64,000 nt of DNA from Spiroplasma floricola 23-6 (lineage in GTDB: Bacteria > Bacillota_I > Bacilli_A > Mycoplasmatales > Mycoplasmataceae): the NCBI RefSeq assembly GCF_002813555.1, contig NZ_CP025057.1:248001-312000 (forward strand), in the 5' to 3' direction. Numbering within the stretch: the stretch's first letter is position 1; each line of letters begins with the position of its first letter. Shown piece after piece: positions 23,881 through 57,520 of the stretch. Made by a program: the position numbers and the translations under genes. Below the pieces are notes generated by a model. It was not told the origin of the DNA. It did no database searches and worked only from the letters and a program-made list of their open reading frames with translations.

Positions 23881-25335
23881 ATGAACAAAGAAATAGAATT
23901 TTATGAACCAAGTAAAATTGCAAAAAAAATTAAAAGAACTAAAATAGTTACAACAATTGGGCCAAGTACTCATTCAAAAGATGATATTAGAAAATTATTT
24001 GAATCAGGTATGAATGTTGTGAGATTAAATTTTTCTCATGGAAAACAAGAAGAACAATCAGAAAAAATAAAATCAGTAATTGAGTTAAGAGAAGAATTAG
24101 ATAAACCAATTTCAATAATGTTAGATACAAAAGGTCCAGAAATTAGAATTGGAAAAGTTCTTGATGGTGCACAAGAAATTAAAGCTGGATCAGATATTAG
24201 AGTTTATACAACTCAAGAAGAGTATTTAAAACGTGAATGTAAAGCAACTGAAATGACAGTTTCATATGATATGAGTATTGATTTAAAACCAGGAGATACT
24301 GTTTTAGTAGATGATGGTAAATTAACATTAAATGTTATTAATGTAGAATCAGGATTAGTTAATTGTAAAGCTTTTAATACACACACTATTAAAACAAATA
24401 AAAGAGTAAATTTACCAGGTGTTGATTTTTCACTACCATTTTTAGCTCAAAAAGATATTGATGATATTAAATATGGAGCAAAAATGAAAGTTGACTACAT
24501 TGCAGCATCATTTGTTAATACAGCAGATAATGTAAAAGAAATTAGAAATATTTTAAAAGAATGTAAAGCTGAACATATCCAAATTATTTCAAAAATTGAA
24601 TCAAAAATAGGTATTTTTAATATTGATTCAATTATTGAAGCATCAGATGGAATTATGGTTGCTCGTGGAGATTTAGGATTAGAAATTCCTTATTATGAAG
24701 TTCCTTATTGAGAAAAACAAATGATCAGAAAATGTAGAAAAGCTGGAAAAGTTGTTGTTGTTGCAACACAAATGTTAGAATCAATGACTGACAATCCTCA
24801 ACCAACAAGAGCTGAAGTAACTGACGTTTATTATGCAACTGAACTAGGAGCTGATGCAACTATGTTAAGTGGTGAATCAGCTGCAGGTATTTATCCATTT
24901 ATAACAACAGAAACTATGGCAACAATTAATAAACGTGCAGAATTAGGTTTCTATGGAAAAATTTACTATGACAGAGCATTAGAAATTGCAAGAAATAGTT
25001 CATCTGGTAAAAGAGCAGAAATTGCAGATGAATTGGCAAACATTACAAGAAATGGTAAATACGAATTTGCATTAGTACTTTCAAGAACTGGTGAATTATT
25101 AAGAACTATTTCAAAATTTAGACCAAATGTTACAATCTTAGGTGTTTGTGACAAAGAAGAATTATGAACTGGATTTGGAGCAATGCATTCAATCTTTATG
25201 AATAGAGTTAAAAGCATTGATAAAATTATTGACAATAATGATGAATTATCTGAAATTGCAAGATCATGAGGTGCAAAAAAAGGTGAACAAATTCTTATTG
25301 TTAGAAATGAAAATATTAAAGTTCATACTGTTTAA
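23881..25335 (+). CDS. pyk: pyruvate kinase 1
   Basis: 484 residues. Makes ATP and pyruvate from phosphoenolpyruvate. TIGPSTHS near the N-terminus, TKGPEIR at residues 83-89, active-site Lys238 in IISKIES, the metal ligand segment [10 protein letters not shown] and the nucleotide-binding TRAEVTDV are all present, and the C-terminal effector domain is complete. AAGGAGG lies 8 nt before ATG 23881. It is cotranscribed with pfkA and ends at a terminator. A second copy follows immediately; the central domain is nearly identical between the two, while the N-terminal 40 and C-terminal 90 residues differ. Confidence 0.96.
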
Positions 25336-25427: not shown

Positions 25428-26864
25428 ATGAATAAATTTAATTTAAATGAAAAAATGAAAAGAACCAAAGTTATTACAACTATTGGTCCAAGTGTTCACT
25501 CAAAAGAAGCTATCAAAGAATTATTTGATAAAGGAATGACAACAATACGTTTAAACTTTTCACACGCTGATTTTCAAGAACATGGAGAAAGATTTGAATG
25601 AGTTAAAACTTTAAGAAAAGAAATAAATAAACCAATTTCAATTTTATTAGATACAAAAGGTCCAGAAATTAGAATTGGAAAAATGAAAGATGGAAAACAA
25701 GAAGTTAAAGCAGGAACTGAAATAACTGTTTATACTGATCCAAAAGATTTTTCAACAAGAGAATGTTCAGCAACAGAAATGCAAATGTCATATGATATGT
25801 CTCAAGATGTAAAAGTTGGAGATGTAGTTTTAGTAGATGATGGAAAATTAACAATGCATGTAACAAGTGTTGATAAATATAAAGTTATATGTAAAGCATT
25901 TAATACTCATTTAGTAAAAACAAATAAAAGAGTAAATTTACCAGGTGTTGAATTTACATTGCCATTCTTAGCTGAAAAAGATTACAATGATATTCATTTT
26001 GGAATTGAAAATAATATTGACTATATTGCAGCATCATTTGTTAACTCAGCAGATAATGTAAACGAAATTAGAAATATTTTAAAAGAAAAAAAAGCAGAAC
26101 ATATCCAAATTATTTCAAAAATTGAATCACAAGTTGGATGTGATAATATTGATTCAATTATTGCAGCATCAGATGGAATTATGGTTGCTCGTGGAGATTT
26201 AGGATTAGAAATTCCTTATTATGATGTACCATATTGAGAAAAACAAATTATTAGAAAATGTAGAGAACAAGGAAAATTAGTTATTGTGGCAACACAAATG
26301 TTAGAATCAATGACTGATAATCCTCAACCAACAAGAGCTGAAGTAACTGACGTTTACTATGCAACTGAATTAGGTGCTGATGCAACTATGTTAAGTGGTG
26401 AATCAGCAAATGGAGATTTCCCATTTATTACTGTTGAAACTATGTCAACAATTAATAAACGTGCTGAAATTGAATTTTATGAAAAAAACTACTATACTAA
26501 ACAATTAGAAAATGCTAGAAAATCAAGTTCAGGAAAAAGATCTGAAATTGCAAATCAATTAGCAAATACTACTTTAGGTGGAAACTATGAATATGCTGTT
26601 GTTGTTTCAAGAACAGGAGAATTGCTAAAAACTATTTCAAAATTTAGACCAAATGTTACCATCCTAGGTGTTTGTGATAATGAAAAATTATGAACTGGAT
26701 TTGGAGCAATGCATTCAATCTTTATGAATCAAGTAGATAATTTAGATTCATTCATGGATGATCAAAAAGCAATCTCAGAAGTTGCAAAATCATGAGGTGC
26801 AAAATCAGGAGAAAGAATCTTGTTTGTTAGAAATGAAAATATTAAAGAAATTACAGTATTATAA
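25428..26864 (+). CDS. pyk: pyruvate kinase 2 (tandem duplicate)
   Basis: 478 residues with every pyruvate kinase motif intact ([32 protein letters not shown]), so both copies look catalytically able. It lacks the N-terminal [11 protein letters not shown] extension of copy 1. The central catalytic segments are identical to copy 1 at protein and almost at DNA level (for example around 24640-24700 and 26160-26220), while effector-domain residues differ, which suggests recent duplication or gene conversion. It has its own TATAAT and the ribosome site AAGGAG. Different effector responses of the two isozymes are possible. Confidence 0.95.
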
Positions 26865-30196: not shown

Positions 30197-31220
30197 ATGA
30201 ATAAACAAAATTTTATAACTATGCCTAAATTTGAGATGCATTTACATATTGAAGGAACAATGTATCCTGAATTTTTTGTTAAAAAAGCAAAAGAAAAAAA
30301 TATCAAACTTGCTTTTGATACTCCAGAAGAATATTATGTTGATTATAGAACCAGAAATACATTACAAAAATTCCTAATGACTTATTATGGAAATATGCGT
30401 GTATTGGAAAATAAATGAGATTTTTATGATTTAGCTTGAGAACATGCCAAAAGAGCTTCTGAGCAAAATATTAGATATGCTGAAATATTTTTTGATCCTC
30501 AACCACATCTTTATAGAGGTGTTAAATTTGATGAAATTGTAAATGGATTATATGAAGCTTTTCAAGATGCTAAAAAAAAATTAAATTTTAGAGCACAATT
30601 GATTATGTGTTTTTTAAAAGATTTACCAGAGTATGAAGCTGAAGAAGTTTTAGAATTGGCAAAATCTGCAATTAAGCAAAATAAAATTATAGCTATTGGT
30701 TTTGATTCAAGTGAATCACCAAATTGAGTACAAAGGTTTCAAAAAGTTGTTTTAAAAGCAAGATTCTTAGGATTAAAAGTTGTAAGTCATTGTCAAGAAA
30801 ATGTTACAGATCAATCAGCATGAGATGTATTGCATTATTTTCAACCTAATAGAATTGATCATGGTTTTTTATACACGAGGATAAAGAAATTTTGACAAGA
30901 ATAAAAAATGATAATATTCACATAACAATGTGTCCATTTTCAAGTACAAGAGGAAATAAATTCGAAAATAAAAAAGATTATCCAATTAAAAAATATTTGA
31001 ATTTTGGAATTCAATTAAATATTAACTCTGATGATCCTGCATATCATGGAGCTACTTTAACTCAAAGTTTTAATTATGTAGATGATATGTGAAATCTTTC
31101 AAAAGAAGAGTGAAAAACAATAAGTCTAAATTCTGTTAATGGTACATTTCTAAATGACAAAGAAAAAGAAGAATATAGAAAAGAAGTAATAACTTTCTTT
31201 GAAGAAAAGTGACAGATTAA
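30197..31220 (+). pseudogene. add: adenosine deaminase, frameshifted
   Basis: Adenosine deaminase fold: MHLHIEG (metal-binding HxH) at residues 14-20, SHCQENV with the catalytic region, and NSDDPAYHG carrying the metal Asp. The first 225 codons are in one frame up to GGT-TTT-TTA at 30863-30871; the rest (HEDKEILTRI onward) is in the -1 frame. A single T missing from the T6 run at 30865-30870, or -1 slippage on U-UUU-UUA, would restore a full protein. Near the end the -1 frame has no stop until 31899; adding one base near 31205 would give a TAA at 31218, so a second lesion is likely. Either a decayed gene, a recoded one or two sequence errors. Confidence 0.75.
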
Positions 31221-31260
31221 GAGTTTAAAAAAGCACTTCTTTAAGTGCTTTTTTAAACTC
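31221..31260. terminator. bidirectional terminator between add and the DcuC-like gene
   Basis: Perfect 18-bp stem GAGTTTAAAAAAGCACTT / AAGTGCTTTTTTAAACTC with a CTTT loop. It serves both convergent genes. Confidence 0.9.
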
Positions 31261-32695
31261 TATATAAAGATAATAAGTGATAAAATAAGCATTAATATTA
31301 CCCCAGATAGTAAAGGAATGCATGTTCTTTTTATTAATTCGGTAGTTGTTACATTAGTTTTTTGTGAAACAATAATAACTACTGAAGAAACTGGGGACAT
31401 AGCTCTAAAAAGATTTCCTGCCATTTGGAATGGTACTATTGCAGCAGCTGAACTTATTCCTGATGCTTGTGCCATTGATGGAAGAATTGGAGCAAGTGCA
31501 AATAATAATGCTGTTCCTGATCCACTTAATAAAACAATAAATGCTGTAAATATAACTAAGATAATAGGTAGCAATATGGAACTGCCCCCTGTTAATTTCA
31601 TAGCAGATTCTAATTTAGCAATTAAACCAATATTTGTTAAACCTTTTATAAAAACATCTGCTGCTACTCTCAAAGCAACAATAACCATATTGGCACCCAT
31701 ACCTTTTCAAAAGGCAGCTGTTTCAGTTGATACAACTTTGAAAGATTTCTTATTAATTCACTCACAAAATATGGCAATAATAAAACTTAAAAAAGTTACT
31801 AACTCAACTGATATTTCTAAACCACCATTAAATGCAAAAGTGCTTAGAATAAAACTTATAATAACAAGTATAATTGGTAACATTGGTAAAATAGTATAAA
31901 CAATTTTGTAAGTTTTACCTGACTCAATAGTTACTATTTTATGAATTTCTTCATTAAAGTTATATTGTATACCTTTTTTTAAATCTCTTTTATCACAATA
32001 CAATTGTCAAAATAAATGTACTAAAGACATAAAAACAATTGTTGGAAGTGAAATCATTGCGTGATATTTTATTACATATTCAGTAGCAGATATTCCTAGC
32101 TATTCTGCAATAAATACATTATCACTTCCTAAAGGAGTAGGCATAATTGTTGCTGTTGTTGCTATTACACCACCAGCAGATAATGGAGATATACCTGATT
32201 TAATTAAAACTGGAAATAAAGTAGTCATTAAAATTAAAGCCAATGTTGCAGCTGAAGGAATAGTTAAAGATAAAATATGACCAAAAATAAAAACTATTGG
32301 AATTAATAAATATTTTTTCTTAATCTTTACTAAAGGTTTTGTTAAAGTTGCAACAATAACATCATTTGCTCCTATTTGTCCCATAAAAGCACTATAACCT
32401 CCAAGTAAAAGTATAATAAATCCTGCACCAGAAACACCTTTAGTAAAACTTTTTGTTAATTCTTCTAGTGGATAAAAAACATCAATTGGCTTATTTATTT
32501 GAACTTTGCCTAAACACATAGATATTATTAACAAGAATAAGCCTAAAACAAAAAGGGAAATAATTATATTAACCTTTTTTATTAAAAAAAAGATAAGTAA
32601 GCCAATAGCCAATGCTCCAAATATATACATAAAAATATCGTTTATCATTTGTTTAATATGGTCAAAATATTTTTTCAAATGTTAAAAACTTTCAT
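31260..32695 (-). pseudogene. DcuC/YfcC-like membrane transporter with premature TAG and a disrupted start
   Basis: About 475 codons of a 10-12-helix transporter of the DcuC superfamily (GGYSAFMGQIGANDVIV; NLFRAMSPVSSVVIIVS; ELIKRTCIPLLSGVIL). The frame is open on the reverse strand from TTG 32678 to the TAG at 31260 except for an in-frame TAG at 32100-32102 (codon 193, after FIAE). The best start, ATG 32695 with AGAGGG upstream, is in a neighbouring frame and needs a one-base change in the A run near 32672-32677 (MKVFNIWKKYFDHI). The gene lies behind a guanine-type riboswitch, so a purine nucleobase or nucleoside may be the substrate. With two lesions it is probably inactive. Confidence 0.7.
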
Positions 32696-32750
32696 TAAAT
32701 AACCCTCTCTCAATCTATCTTAAAAAAGATGCTTGAAAAAAGTAAAAATT

Positions 32751-32771
32751 ACAGAAACAAAAAGTTTCTGT
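32751..32771 (-). terminator. riboswitch expression-platform terminator
   Basis: On the reverse strand ACAGAAAC-TTTTT-GTTTCTGT followed by AATTTTTAC, 5 nt after the aptamer. Its left arm can also be reached by the P1 strand, so purine binding would stabilise P1 and favour termination. Confidence 0.75.
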
Positions 32772-32775
32772 CAGA

Positions 32776-32837
32776 CTCATAGTATTTTGATAGGTCAAAA
32801 TGTAGAAACACCAACCCATTATGTTGGTTTATACAAG
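32776..32837 (-). promoter_or_regulatory. purine riboswitch aptamer (guanine type)
   Basis: Reverse strand: P1 CTTGTA/TATGAG with two G-U pairs; P2 CCAAC/GTTGG with loop containing ATAATGG; J2/3 TGTTTCTACA (consensus GTTTCTACC); P3 ATTTTGA/TCAAAAT; J3/1 ACTATG. The nucleotide before TATG is C, which in this class specifies guanine (U would specify adenine). P3 loop is short (CCTA). J2/3 differs from the 2'-deoxyguanosine variants of Mesoplasma florum. It controls the DcuC-like gene. Confidence 0.8.
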
Positions 32838-33017
32838 CATTTTATTAAGTTAAAATTATTTTAACATTTTTTTAACAATGATTATTAATCAAAAAACTTA
32901 TAAGTCTTTATATTTTATTTATTAAAAAGCTAAAATATTTGTATAATATGAAATTTTAATTATAGTTTTCCTTTTTTTTATATATAATAAAAAAAGATAA
33001 ATGCATAGGAGTATTTT

Positions 33018-33206: not shown

Positions 33207-34739
33207 ATGAATAATAAAGAACCTAAATTTAAAAAGAAATTTAAATTTAAAATACCCACCTCATTTACGATACTTTTTGCAGTATTGATAATGATAATGA
33301 TAACATCTTGAATATTGTATTATTCAGGAGTAACTTATAATAAACCGGGAAAAAACGAAACAGACCCATCAGTTCCAACTGTAATTACAGGTATTGGAAT
33401 TGTAGATTTATTTGTATCTATATTTAAAGGATTTGAAGATAAAGTAGAAATTATTGTATTTGTTTTATCAATTGGAGCATTTATTTATATAGTAATGAAG
33501 TCAAAATCACTAGATGCGTTGACTCAAAAAATAGCGTGAAAATTTAAAGATAAGACAATCTGAGCAATTCCAATTATTGTTATATTTTTAAGTTTTTGTG
33601 GTTCTGCATATGGAATGGCAGAAGAAGCTTTGGGATTTCATATGATAGTTATTCCATTAATGTTAGTAGCAGGTTTTGATGTTTTCACAGCATTAATAAC
33701 AGTATTACTTGGTGGGGGAATTGGTCCCATGTTGGCAACATTTGATCCTTTCTTAATTTTTACAGCAGCAGATGCTGCAAATTCTCAAGCAATGGATGGT
33801 TTAATTTTTAGATTAATAGCTTGAGTTCTTGTAACAGGATTTACTTCAGGGTGAATAATGTTTTATGCAAGAAATGTTAAAAAAAATCCTCAGCTTTCAT
33901 ATACATTTTCAACATTAGAAGAGGATAAAAAATTCTTTTTAAAAGAACAAATTAACGAAGTTGCTTTAACTAAAAAAAGAATAACAATCAGTGTAATTTT
34001 TTTAGTAATGTTTTTAATAATGATTGCATATCTATTTCCTTGAGATGAATTGTTTAAAACAACTGCCATGAAGGATTTTGGAAATTGAGTTAACAAATAT
34101 ATTCCTTTTTTAACAGGTTTAGTTCCTGGTATGGGATATGGCGATATGTTCATAGTTGCTGGTTTCTTTTTAATAGGTTCATTAATAGTAGCTATTTTAA
34201 ATTGAGAAGGAGAAGAAACTTTCATTGAAGATCTTCTTGCTGGTGCAAAAGATATGATAGGAGTTGCATTTATTATTTCAATTGCAGGAGCTATTACTTA
34301 TCTTTTAAAAGAAACAGGTATTCAAGCACTTATGTTAGCAGGAATCAAAAATTCAAATATAGGTAATATGAATCCATTTTTATTTATTATTATAACTTTC
34401 TTATTGTTTATACCTATGTCGTTTGCTTTACCTTCAACTTCAGGTTTTTCAAGTGCAGTATTTCCTGTTTGAGGACCATTAGCAGGTTCAATAAGTATAG
34501 GTTCAACTGGAACAAATATGATTTCTGGAAGTATAACAGCATTTGCATATGCTAATGGAATGGCAAATATGGTTTCTCCAGCTTCTGGAATTGTTGTTGG
34601 AGCAGCACAAATTGGTAGAACAAGTTATGGTACAATTATAAAAGGAACTTGAAAATTTCATTTAAGTTTATTTATAATAAATATAGCACTACTTTTAATT
34701 GGAACAGGTCTTAATTATACAGGATCTCATATTTTTTAA
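33207..34739 (+). CDS. YfcC-family (DcuC superfamily) amino-acid/dicarboxylate transporter
   Basis: 510 residues, about 11-12 hydrophobic segments. It matches the YfcC type: a basic N-terminus (KFKKKFKFKIPTSFTILFA), a loop after the first helix, GMAEEALGFHMIVIPLM (conserved acidic pair), LLGGGIGPMLATF and SFALPSTSGFSSAVFPVW, and PASGIVVGAAQIGR near the end. YfcC proteins are thought to move basic amino acids or dicarboxylates, substrate unproven. ATG 33207 has only a weak GAGAG ribosome site. It is the same superfamily as the broken reverse-strand neighbour, so it may be the surviving paralogue. Followed by a terminator-like hairpin. Confidence 0.85.
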
Positions 34740-41106: not shown

Positions 41107-41961
41107 TTATCATTTTTTATTCATTCTAATTCTATCATTATTATAAAAGTCCAATCATGCTCATGCTATTTCCATACATTGATTAATGTTTTCAATATGA
41201 CATGTTCTTATAGTTTCATCTTTTAAACGACCATGAAAACTTTCATGTTTACCATTATGATGAGGTGTTCCTGGTTTTGAATAGCTTCTAATAATTTGAA
41301 AATCAATTTATAAACTTATGTAATCCAGAGAGGTATATTGATTTCCATTATCTGAATGTAATAATATTGAACCTAAATATTTTTTATTTTTATATGCCAT
41401 TTCTACAGCTTCAAGAACAAAATCTGTTTTTTGATTATCAATTCTTTTAGATTTTCCTATTATTTCTCCAGTTAAATTATCTTGAACTGTGCAAATATAA
41501 CCTTTTTTTGTTTTAACTGAAAATTCAGTTATATCACTAGTTCAAATATTTTCAAAACCAATTTCTTTTGCTTCTTTTAAATAATTCTTTCTAATAGTTT
41601 CGTTATATCTTTTAATCTCATGTTTAGATTGTTTCTTAATGTAATATGCAATATGATTAAATTTTTTAAATATACGTTCTAATTTTTTATGATTAATTCT
41701 GAAAGGGTCAATATAATTTAATTTAAAATATAGGGCTCATCTTTTAGCACTATAAGCACTAAGGAAATTATTCCTTTCAATTTCTGAAATAACTAAATTC
41801 ATAATTCTTGTATCATCCAGGAAATTCATTAAAGTTTTATTTTTTTTATATGTTGATGTTCTATTAATATTTAAAATTTTACAAATCATTGTTCTATTGC
41901 TCTTGGTATTTATCAATAATTGTTGAACTATTTCTTTTTGGTTTTGGCCTTGGAGGCTCAT
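41107..41961 (-). pseudogene. IS3-family transposase OrfB, premature stop
   Basis: 284 codons. The DDE catalytic residues are all present: WTSDITEF (first Asp), LHSDNGNQYTS (second Asp) and HHNGKHESFHG (Glu). An in-frame TAA at 41308-41310 (codon 218, between YISL and IDFQII) cuts the protein before the catalytic Glu, so this copy should be inactive. The frame overlaps OrfA by 34 nt in -1 phase. A natural stop TAA is at 41107. Confidence 0.85.
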
Positions 41962-42257
41962 TGCTTTTTTAAAATATCATTCTCCTTAATTAATTCCTTA
42001 TTGTAATCAAATAGAATTCCTACAAACAGATCATTTGCCTTTTGAGATATACTGTAATCTATTTTATAAGGTAAACGAGTTTTTGAATCACCAATATCTG
42101 TATTTTTGTATTTGTTTATTATTGTTCCAATTGATCCTGTAGTTGAGTTAAATTTTAATGCTATTTCCTTTAGAGAATAACCATTCAAACTTAATTCAAT
42201 AATTTTTTCTTTTTCTTCTTGAGTTCACTTTCTAAACTTTTGTCCTTTTTTTGCCAT
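41928..42257 (-). CDS. IS3-family transposase OrfA
   Basis: 109 residues. Helix-turn-helix protein: EEKEKIIELSLNGYSLKEIA and FNSTTGSIGTIINKY are the two recognition regions usual in IS150 OrfA. It starts at ATG 42257, in frame with a TGA Trp (FRKWTQEE), and ends at TAG 41928. The heptamer A-AAA-AAG (reverse strand, about 41972-41966) lies in phase shortly before OrfB, the classic IS3 site for -1 frameshifting that yields the OrfAB transposase. Confidence 0.85.
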
Positions 42258-57253: not shown

Positions 57254-57520
57254 TTTTATTAAAAACTTTATTGTAAACTTTTTCTATTTAAAAGATAAAG
57301 TTGTTTTAATGATTTAAAAACTAATACAAAAACCTTATACAGGCTATGATAGTGTGTTACTATTTTGATTCAAGATCAATCTTGGGTTTATAAGTGTAAA
57401 GGTTTTAACATACATAAAGAAATCTCATTTTTATTTTTAACTTTTTTTCTTGAGTTTTATTTTATCAAATAGTATAAATATACAATTCCAATTTTGTAAA
57501 ATTTAACCAAATAATGTCAT
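57254..57520. other. intergenic region, no gene, structured element inside
   Basis: 267 nt, AT-rich, between the TPR gene and trpS (convergent). Holds the structured element at 57329-57406; I see no open frame of note. Confidence 0.6.
57329..57406. ncRNA. candidate structured RNA, three-way junction
   Basis: Closing stem AAAACCTTATAC / GTGTAAAGGTTTT (57329-57340 with 57394-57406, one mismatch), enclosing hairpins ATAGT-GTGTT-ACTAT (57349-57363) and CAAGAT-CA-ATCTTG (57371-57384). Strand unknown. It does not fit tRNA or the purine aptamer consensus. Confidence 0.4.

Follow-up and report, generated by a model that had tools for sequence, protein, structure and literature searches.

In the purine riboswitch family, position 51 sets the choice between nucleoside and base, being C in both 2'-deoxyguanosine (2'-dG) classes and U in the guanine and adenine classes (PMC8872408). 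The 2'-dG-I switch follows a P/A/T/H strand-exchange logic (PMC5838219), while 2'-dG-III riboswitches, found upstream of purine nucleoside hydrolases, work as ON switches (PMC9295807). A related set of genes is described in B. longum (2026; PMC13011590), where a rbsK / dcuC-like / rihC cluster is induced by ribose, the authors suggest nucleosides, and strains with the cluster showed no growth on cytidine, inosine or uridine. Here we analysed a riboswitch locus within a 64 kb window (the whole stretch of DNA examined) of a 1.28 Mb genome assembled in a single contig, probably that of a Spiroplasma-type mollicute, whose genes are open throughout under genetic code 4. We consider it likely that a guanine-I OFF riboswitch once controlled an operon for ribonucleoside uptake and hydrolysis, consisting of a nucleoside hydrolase and then a DcuC-superfamily transporter, and that this operon is now decaying.

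Aptamer identity and binding pocket

An Rfam scan covering the whole window returned a single match, RF01510 (2'-dG-I) at 32838-32775 on the minus strand (51.7 bits, E 5.4e-8, gathering score 51). The RF00167 (Purine) model, which the initial annotation had named as a check, scored 49.6 bits at the same position (cut-off 37), and our own model R1, whose training set included the window, gave 77.7 bits for the aptamer at 32775-32838. Its main features are as follows.

32775-32838, minus strand: guanine-type purine riboswitch aptamer (P1, P2, J2/3 GUUUCUAC, P3, J3/1 ACU), identified with RF01510, RF00167, R1 and covariation
32804, minus strand: equivalent of U51, read from the sequence; U in 40 of 40 aligned relatives
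32782, minus strand: equivalent of C74, the guanine specificity base, read from the sequence; C in 38 of 40 relatives

We confirmed that the aptamer is complete, with a three-helix junction, GG and CC in the P2 and P3 loops, the UUUCUAC of J2/3 (bases 32808-32802) and A-C-U as J3/1; the guanine/adenine-type J2/3 noted initially was borne out by GUUUCUAC together with U51. In an alignment of 40 aptamers (the window and its relatives), standard pairs filled 94.7% of the pair cells, and the named helices are supported because the 170 double-sided changes observed exceed both the 44 found in shuffles and the 34 or fewer found with partners slid. Folded together, aptamer and downstream hairpin reached -21.6 kcal/mol (z -2.6). 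The adenine-type U74 is absent from the window aptamer, which carries C at 32782 as annotated; it was found in two of the 40 aligned aptamers, both from relative G001 (L079 935-998 and L080 1103-1166), where these adenine-type elements precede an NCS2-type permease and adenylosuccinate synthetase (identities read from the sequence). By U51 and C74 the pocket is of the guanine type and guanine binding is predicted, and the riboswitch is an ordinary new member of the known guanine-I class.

Taken literally, the best Rfam match would make the window aptamer a 2'-dG-I riboswitch, and its L2 loop and overall build are indeed similar to those of the M. florum aptamers. RF01510 was the highest-scoring family but barely above its gathering score, and C58/C51, critical for nucleoside selectivity (PMC8872408), is replaced by U in the window and in all 40 aligned aptamers. 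In addition, the aptamers before the deaminase and hydrolase genes of relative G045 scored higher against RF01510 than the window (64.7 and 55.2 bits) and yet carry U51, which suggests that this model rewards lineage rather than pocket. Deoxyguanosine sensing, as deduced from the Rfam match and the L2 loop, was therefore rejected on U51, and we regard it as extremely unlikely. The likeness of the loop to that of the M. florum 2'-dG riboswitches, pointed out in the initial annotation, is true but not diagnostic, AUAAUGG being one of a few L2 variants common to related mollicutes and their guanine aptamers. Guanine-type aptamers above the RF01510 gathering score were found at window 32775-32838 (minus strand), L043 5645-5708 and L043 9040-9103. 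Automatic 2'-dG labels in this lineage may thus mislead, a match to RF01510 not being equivalent to deoxyguanosine sensing. Regarding 2'-dG-III, defined by altered joining regions and C at position 73 of J3-1 (PMC9295807), the window aptamer has A at 32783 and a canonical J2/3. Another candidate at 57333-57395 (plus strand; three-helix shape, RF01510 27.8 bits, z -1.95) was treated as a chance match because it has neither UUUCUAC nor a gene behind it on the same strand.

Genes behind the riboswitch and their lesions

31260-32648, minus strand: DcuC-superfamily transporter gene, a pseudogene of the nucleoside-linked clade (PF03606, NF037994, homologue alignment, tree)
32100-32102, minus strand: in-frame TAG inside the transporter gene, between its two PF03606 parts (frame read from the sequence)
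30197-31224 (end approximate), plus strand: convergent adenosine deaminase gene (PF00962; frames compared with G045)
32642-32695, minus strand: 17-codon ORF MKVFNIWKNILTILNKW overlapping the transporter start, with only an F..W motif, weak, in common with the hydrolase

As proposed from the sequence, the gene behind the riboswitch on the reverse strand encodes a PF03606 (DcuC) protein in code 4. Two parts of its frame matched the family (60.2 and 128.7 bits, cut-off 23.1), and alignment with intact homologues indicated the ATG at 32648 as its start codon. The convergent neighbour matched PF00962 and is the adenosine deaminase gene expected there, though frameshifted around 30860-30895 in comparison with G045. 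The nucleoside hydrolase (IUNH) gene of homologous loci is absent from the riboswitch locus of the window. The 17-codon ORF may be a remnant of the hydrolase end, as its F..W motif matches hydrolase C-termini; the transporter's own frame looks similar too. A separate IUNH 3' fragment lies far from the riboswitch (genome 929885-930166; L196 1519-1767). The initial picture of a riboswitch controlling a transporter consequently fits the ancestor better than the present genome, in which the transporter is a pseudogene (TAG at 32102-32100) and the hydrolase is gone. We favour biological lesions over assembly errors because several of them fall in one pathway and the same cluster has decayed in G045.

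Elsewhere in the window, a second DcuC-superfamily gene (YfcC-like; 33207-34739, plus strand) is intact and divergent from the riboswitch, two pyruvate kinase-like genes are adjacent at 23881-25335 and 25428-26864 (plus strand), and transposase-like frames at 41308-42257 (minus strand) seemingly split an RpiR-like regulator gene.

Among the 60 family genomes, the transporter was present in two, the window genome and G045, and these were also the only two with a purine riboswitch at a hydrolase/DcuC-like operon. The order in G045 is riboswitch, IUNH gene and DcuC-like gene, with a convergent deaminase gene that has its own purine riboswitch; the frames of hydrolase, transporter and deaminase are all broken. 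The riboswitch before the frameshifted deaminase gene lies at L043 5645-5708 (plus strand). The window genome holds four elements above the RF00167 cut-off, and of the other three, two precede substrate-binding lipoproteins and one an NCS2-type purine permease (identities read from the protein sequence). In L047, near-identical purine aptamers about 1 kb apart (1496-1561 and 2560-2625) are each followed by a lipoprotein gene.

Transporter clade and operon context

In a tree of 48 rows, the window transporter fell into a 39-row clade of hydrolase-linked proteins (support 100/99; window with G045 100/100) rather than with characterised DcuC. Neither E. coli DcuC and DcuD nor the four homologues of 38-40% identity without IUNH grouped with this clade, and the G125 homologue was placed outside it on a long branch. 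NF037994 and TIGR00771 scored above cut-off for whole homologues, and NCBIfam models named C4-dicarboxylate transporter DcuC matched 23 of the 23 clade members scanned. The Erysipelothrix inopinata homologue, modelled with AlphaFold2 (pLDDT 79), came closest to members of the ion transporter superfamily such as VcINDY, TRAP carriers and AbgT. Many solved members of this superfamily carry dicarboxylates; judged from the model, the fold suits many substrates and does not decide the substrate.

The gene neighbourhood was compared in two samples. In the phylum sample, IUNH lay directly upstream of the transporter in all nine other homologues of 46-49% identity, with a ribokinase-like gene before the hydrolase (identity read from the sequence); it was missing beside the four homologues of 38-40% identity, and in G125 (37% identity) the hydrolase follows the transporter. 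A scan of named-species genomes covered the best 80 of 161 relatives, picked by transporter similarity alone (45-50% identity) and mostly from Bacillota, with a few from other phyla. IUNH was directly upstream in 80/80 of these (79 by script rule, L178 by overlapping frames), although they contain many Paenibacillus and do not amount to 80 independent events. Within the fetched stretches of the same best 80 of 161, a ribokinase-like gene occurred at 67, a LacI-like regulator at 55 and an adenosine deaminase gene at none; some loci, mostly of Lactobacillaceae, had hydrolase and transporter and no nearby ribokinase match. No purine riboswitch was found at the operons of these 80 with R1, nor with Rfam in the 11 that were scanned. 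One locus of the phylum sample (L106 6045-6147, plus strand) carries a 72.8-bit purine riboswitch, which precedes a permease on the other strand, convergent with the hydrolase/DcuC-like operon, and not that operon itself. The initial annotation had stated that a purine substrate would be contradicted by homologues that lack the riboswitch and carry dicarboxylate genes; homologues elsewhere do lack it, but nucleoside genes were found in place of dicarboxylate genes.

By its database names the protein would be a true C4-dicarboxylate carrier, linked to the riboswitch by an accident of rearrangement, a reading with which the whole-homologue matches to NF037994 and TIGR00771 and the fold nearest VcINDY and TRAP carriers agree. 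We judge it very unlikely, as the riboswitch and the convergent deaminase were kept in a second species (G045), every one of the closest homologues (best 80 of 161) is linked to a hydrolase, and the clade is separate from E. coli DcuC/DcuD. The clade labelled as dicarboxylate carriers more likely imports nucleosides, because its intact relatives always adjoin a nucleoside-splitting enzyme. Regarding the purine substrate implied at the outset, the purine-linked role stood (IUNH context, riboswitch in G045), while the context points to nucleosides or ribose rather than to a free base.

Another possibility is that the substrate of the clade is not a purine nucleoside but free ribose, or else a riboside such as nicotinamide riboside, as part of a ribose-centred IUNH/ribokinase/LacI operon, with the riboswitch merely sensing the status of salvage. 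The ribokinase-like gene beside 67/80 homologues (best 80 of 161) is consistent with this reading, as is the B. longum cluster, whose ribose induction, with no growth of the strains on three nucleosides (PMC13011590), leaves room for ribose or some other riboside as the substrate. However, the nucleoside hydrolase was the only gene found at every locus (best 80 of 161), it occurs with the transporter at some loci that have no nearby ribokinase match, mostly in Lactobacillaceae, and a guanine sensor would be unexpected before an importer of ribose alone; we therefore consider this reading rather unlikely. On balance, we lean slightly towards a widespread clade of the DcuC superfamily that forms its own family of importers, for nucleosides or ribosides, locked to IUNH, in which the operon of Spiroplasma-type mollicutes would have swapped a LacI-type regulator for a guanine riboswitch, suggesting a change in the type of regulator from protein to RNA. 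None of the papers searched describes this group of transporters as carrying nucleosides. The riboswitch thus pointed to a probable misnaming, given that NCBIfam calls the whole clade C4-dicarboxylate transporter DcuC, and a simple, directly testable substrate prediction follows for the clade.

Switching direction and comparison with known systems

32751-32771, minus strand: terminator-like hairpin of 8 pairs with a U-rich tail (terminator search, folding)
32834-32840, minus strand: segment P, AUGCUUG, overlapping the P1 5' strand and complementary to 32735-32729 (shuffle p = 0.20, weak alone)
32729-32735, minus strand: CAAGCAU (segment T), which could pair with P instead, following the P/T logic described for 2'-dG-I (PMC5838219)
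32703-32711, minus strand: Shine-Dalgarno-like GAGAGAGGG, in the 3' arm of a hairpin made with the T region (fold to 32690)

The terminator noted initially behind the aptamer was recovered as the hairpin at 32771-32751 (ACAGAAAC-UUUUU-GUUUCUGU, tail AAUUUUUACU), the sole terminator-like site in 32600-33000, where 0.0 were expected. It lies outside P1 and does not overlap it. Its 5' arm AGAAAC is complementary to GUUUCU of J2/3 and, from energies alone, could form an antiterminator; before the 3' arm is made, this structure reached -12.1 kcal/mol, about equal to the unliganded aptamer. In folding, the T region, when unpaired with P, contributed to the hairpin covering the Shine-Dalgarno. The P/T layer may be a second switching layer resembling the P/A/T/H logic of 2'-dG-I, the 7-base match taken alone being within chance. 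A general survey of complementarity between P1 strand and downstream sequence in 36 riboswitches gave some low p values and many that were not, and no claim is made from it.

In every scheme that we considered, guanine would be an OFF signal. With ample free guanine, the base would be bound in the pocket and P1 held closed, leading to a downstream OFF structure (the terminator and/or a hairpin masking the ribosome site), and nucleoside import and splitting would cease. At low guanine, either J2/3 or the P1 strand would be freed for alternative pairing and the operon expressed. An ON response to guanine, like that of the 2'-dG-III elements to their ligand, which set a precedent before purine nucleoside hydrolases (PMC9295807), appears improbable: that class senses nucleosides via altered joining regions whereas those of the window are guanine-I, and a hairpin beyond P1 that does not overlap it suits an OFF switch. 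Assuming the OFF switch, the genome today would hold an intact switch before dead genes (hydrolase lost, stop in the transporter, frameshift in the deaminase).

Compared with known systems, the RNA itself is ordinary, and the value of the locus lies in a functional lead on a nucleoside- or ribose-linked DcuC clade. It shares with guanine-I riboswitches (RF00167) the three-way junction, the GG/CC loop-loop bases, U51, C74 and a terminator-like hairpin behind; it differs from them in the mollicute loop variants (AUAAUGG, AUAUUGG, AUAAAGG) and in its target operon of nucleoside hydrolase and DcuC-like transporter, for which we found no prior description. With the 2'-dG-I riboswitch of Mesoplasma florum (RF01510) it has in common the L2 loop, the general lineage and possibly the P/A/T/H strand-exchange layout, but C58/C51 is replaced by U and the link to ribonucleotide reductase is absent in the window. 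With 2'-dG-III it shares, in G045, a purine-family aptamer before a nucleoside hydrolase, whereas the window has the pocket and joining regions of guanine-I and is predicted to be OFF where 2'-dG-III is ON. The B. longum rbsK / dcuC-like / rihC cluster (PMC13011590) combines the same three gene types and is ribose-induced; the accessible part of that report describes no riboswitch. Finally, E. coli DcuC and DcuD (PF03606) belong to the same superfamily, with 29-34% of residues identical in the local alignment, whereas the window transporter belongs to a separate clade that always adjoins a nucleoside hydrolase.
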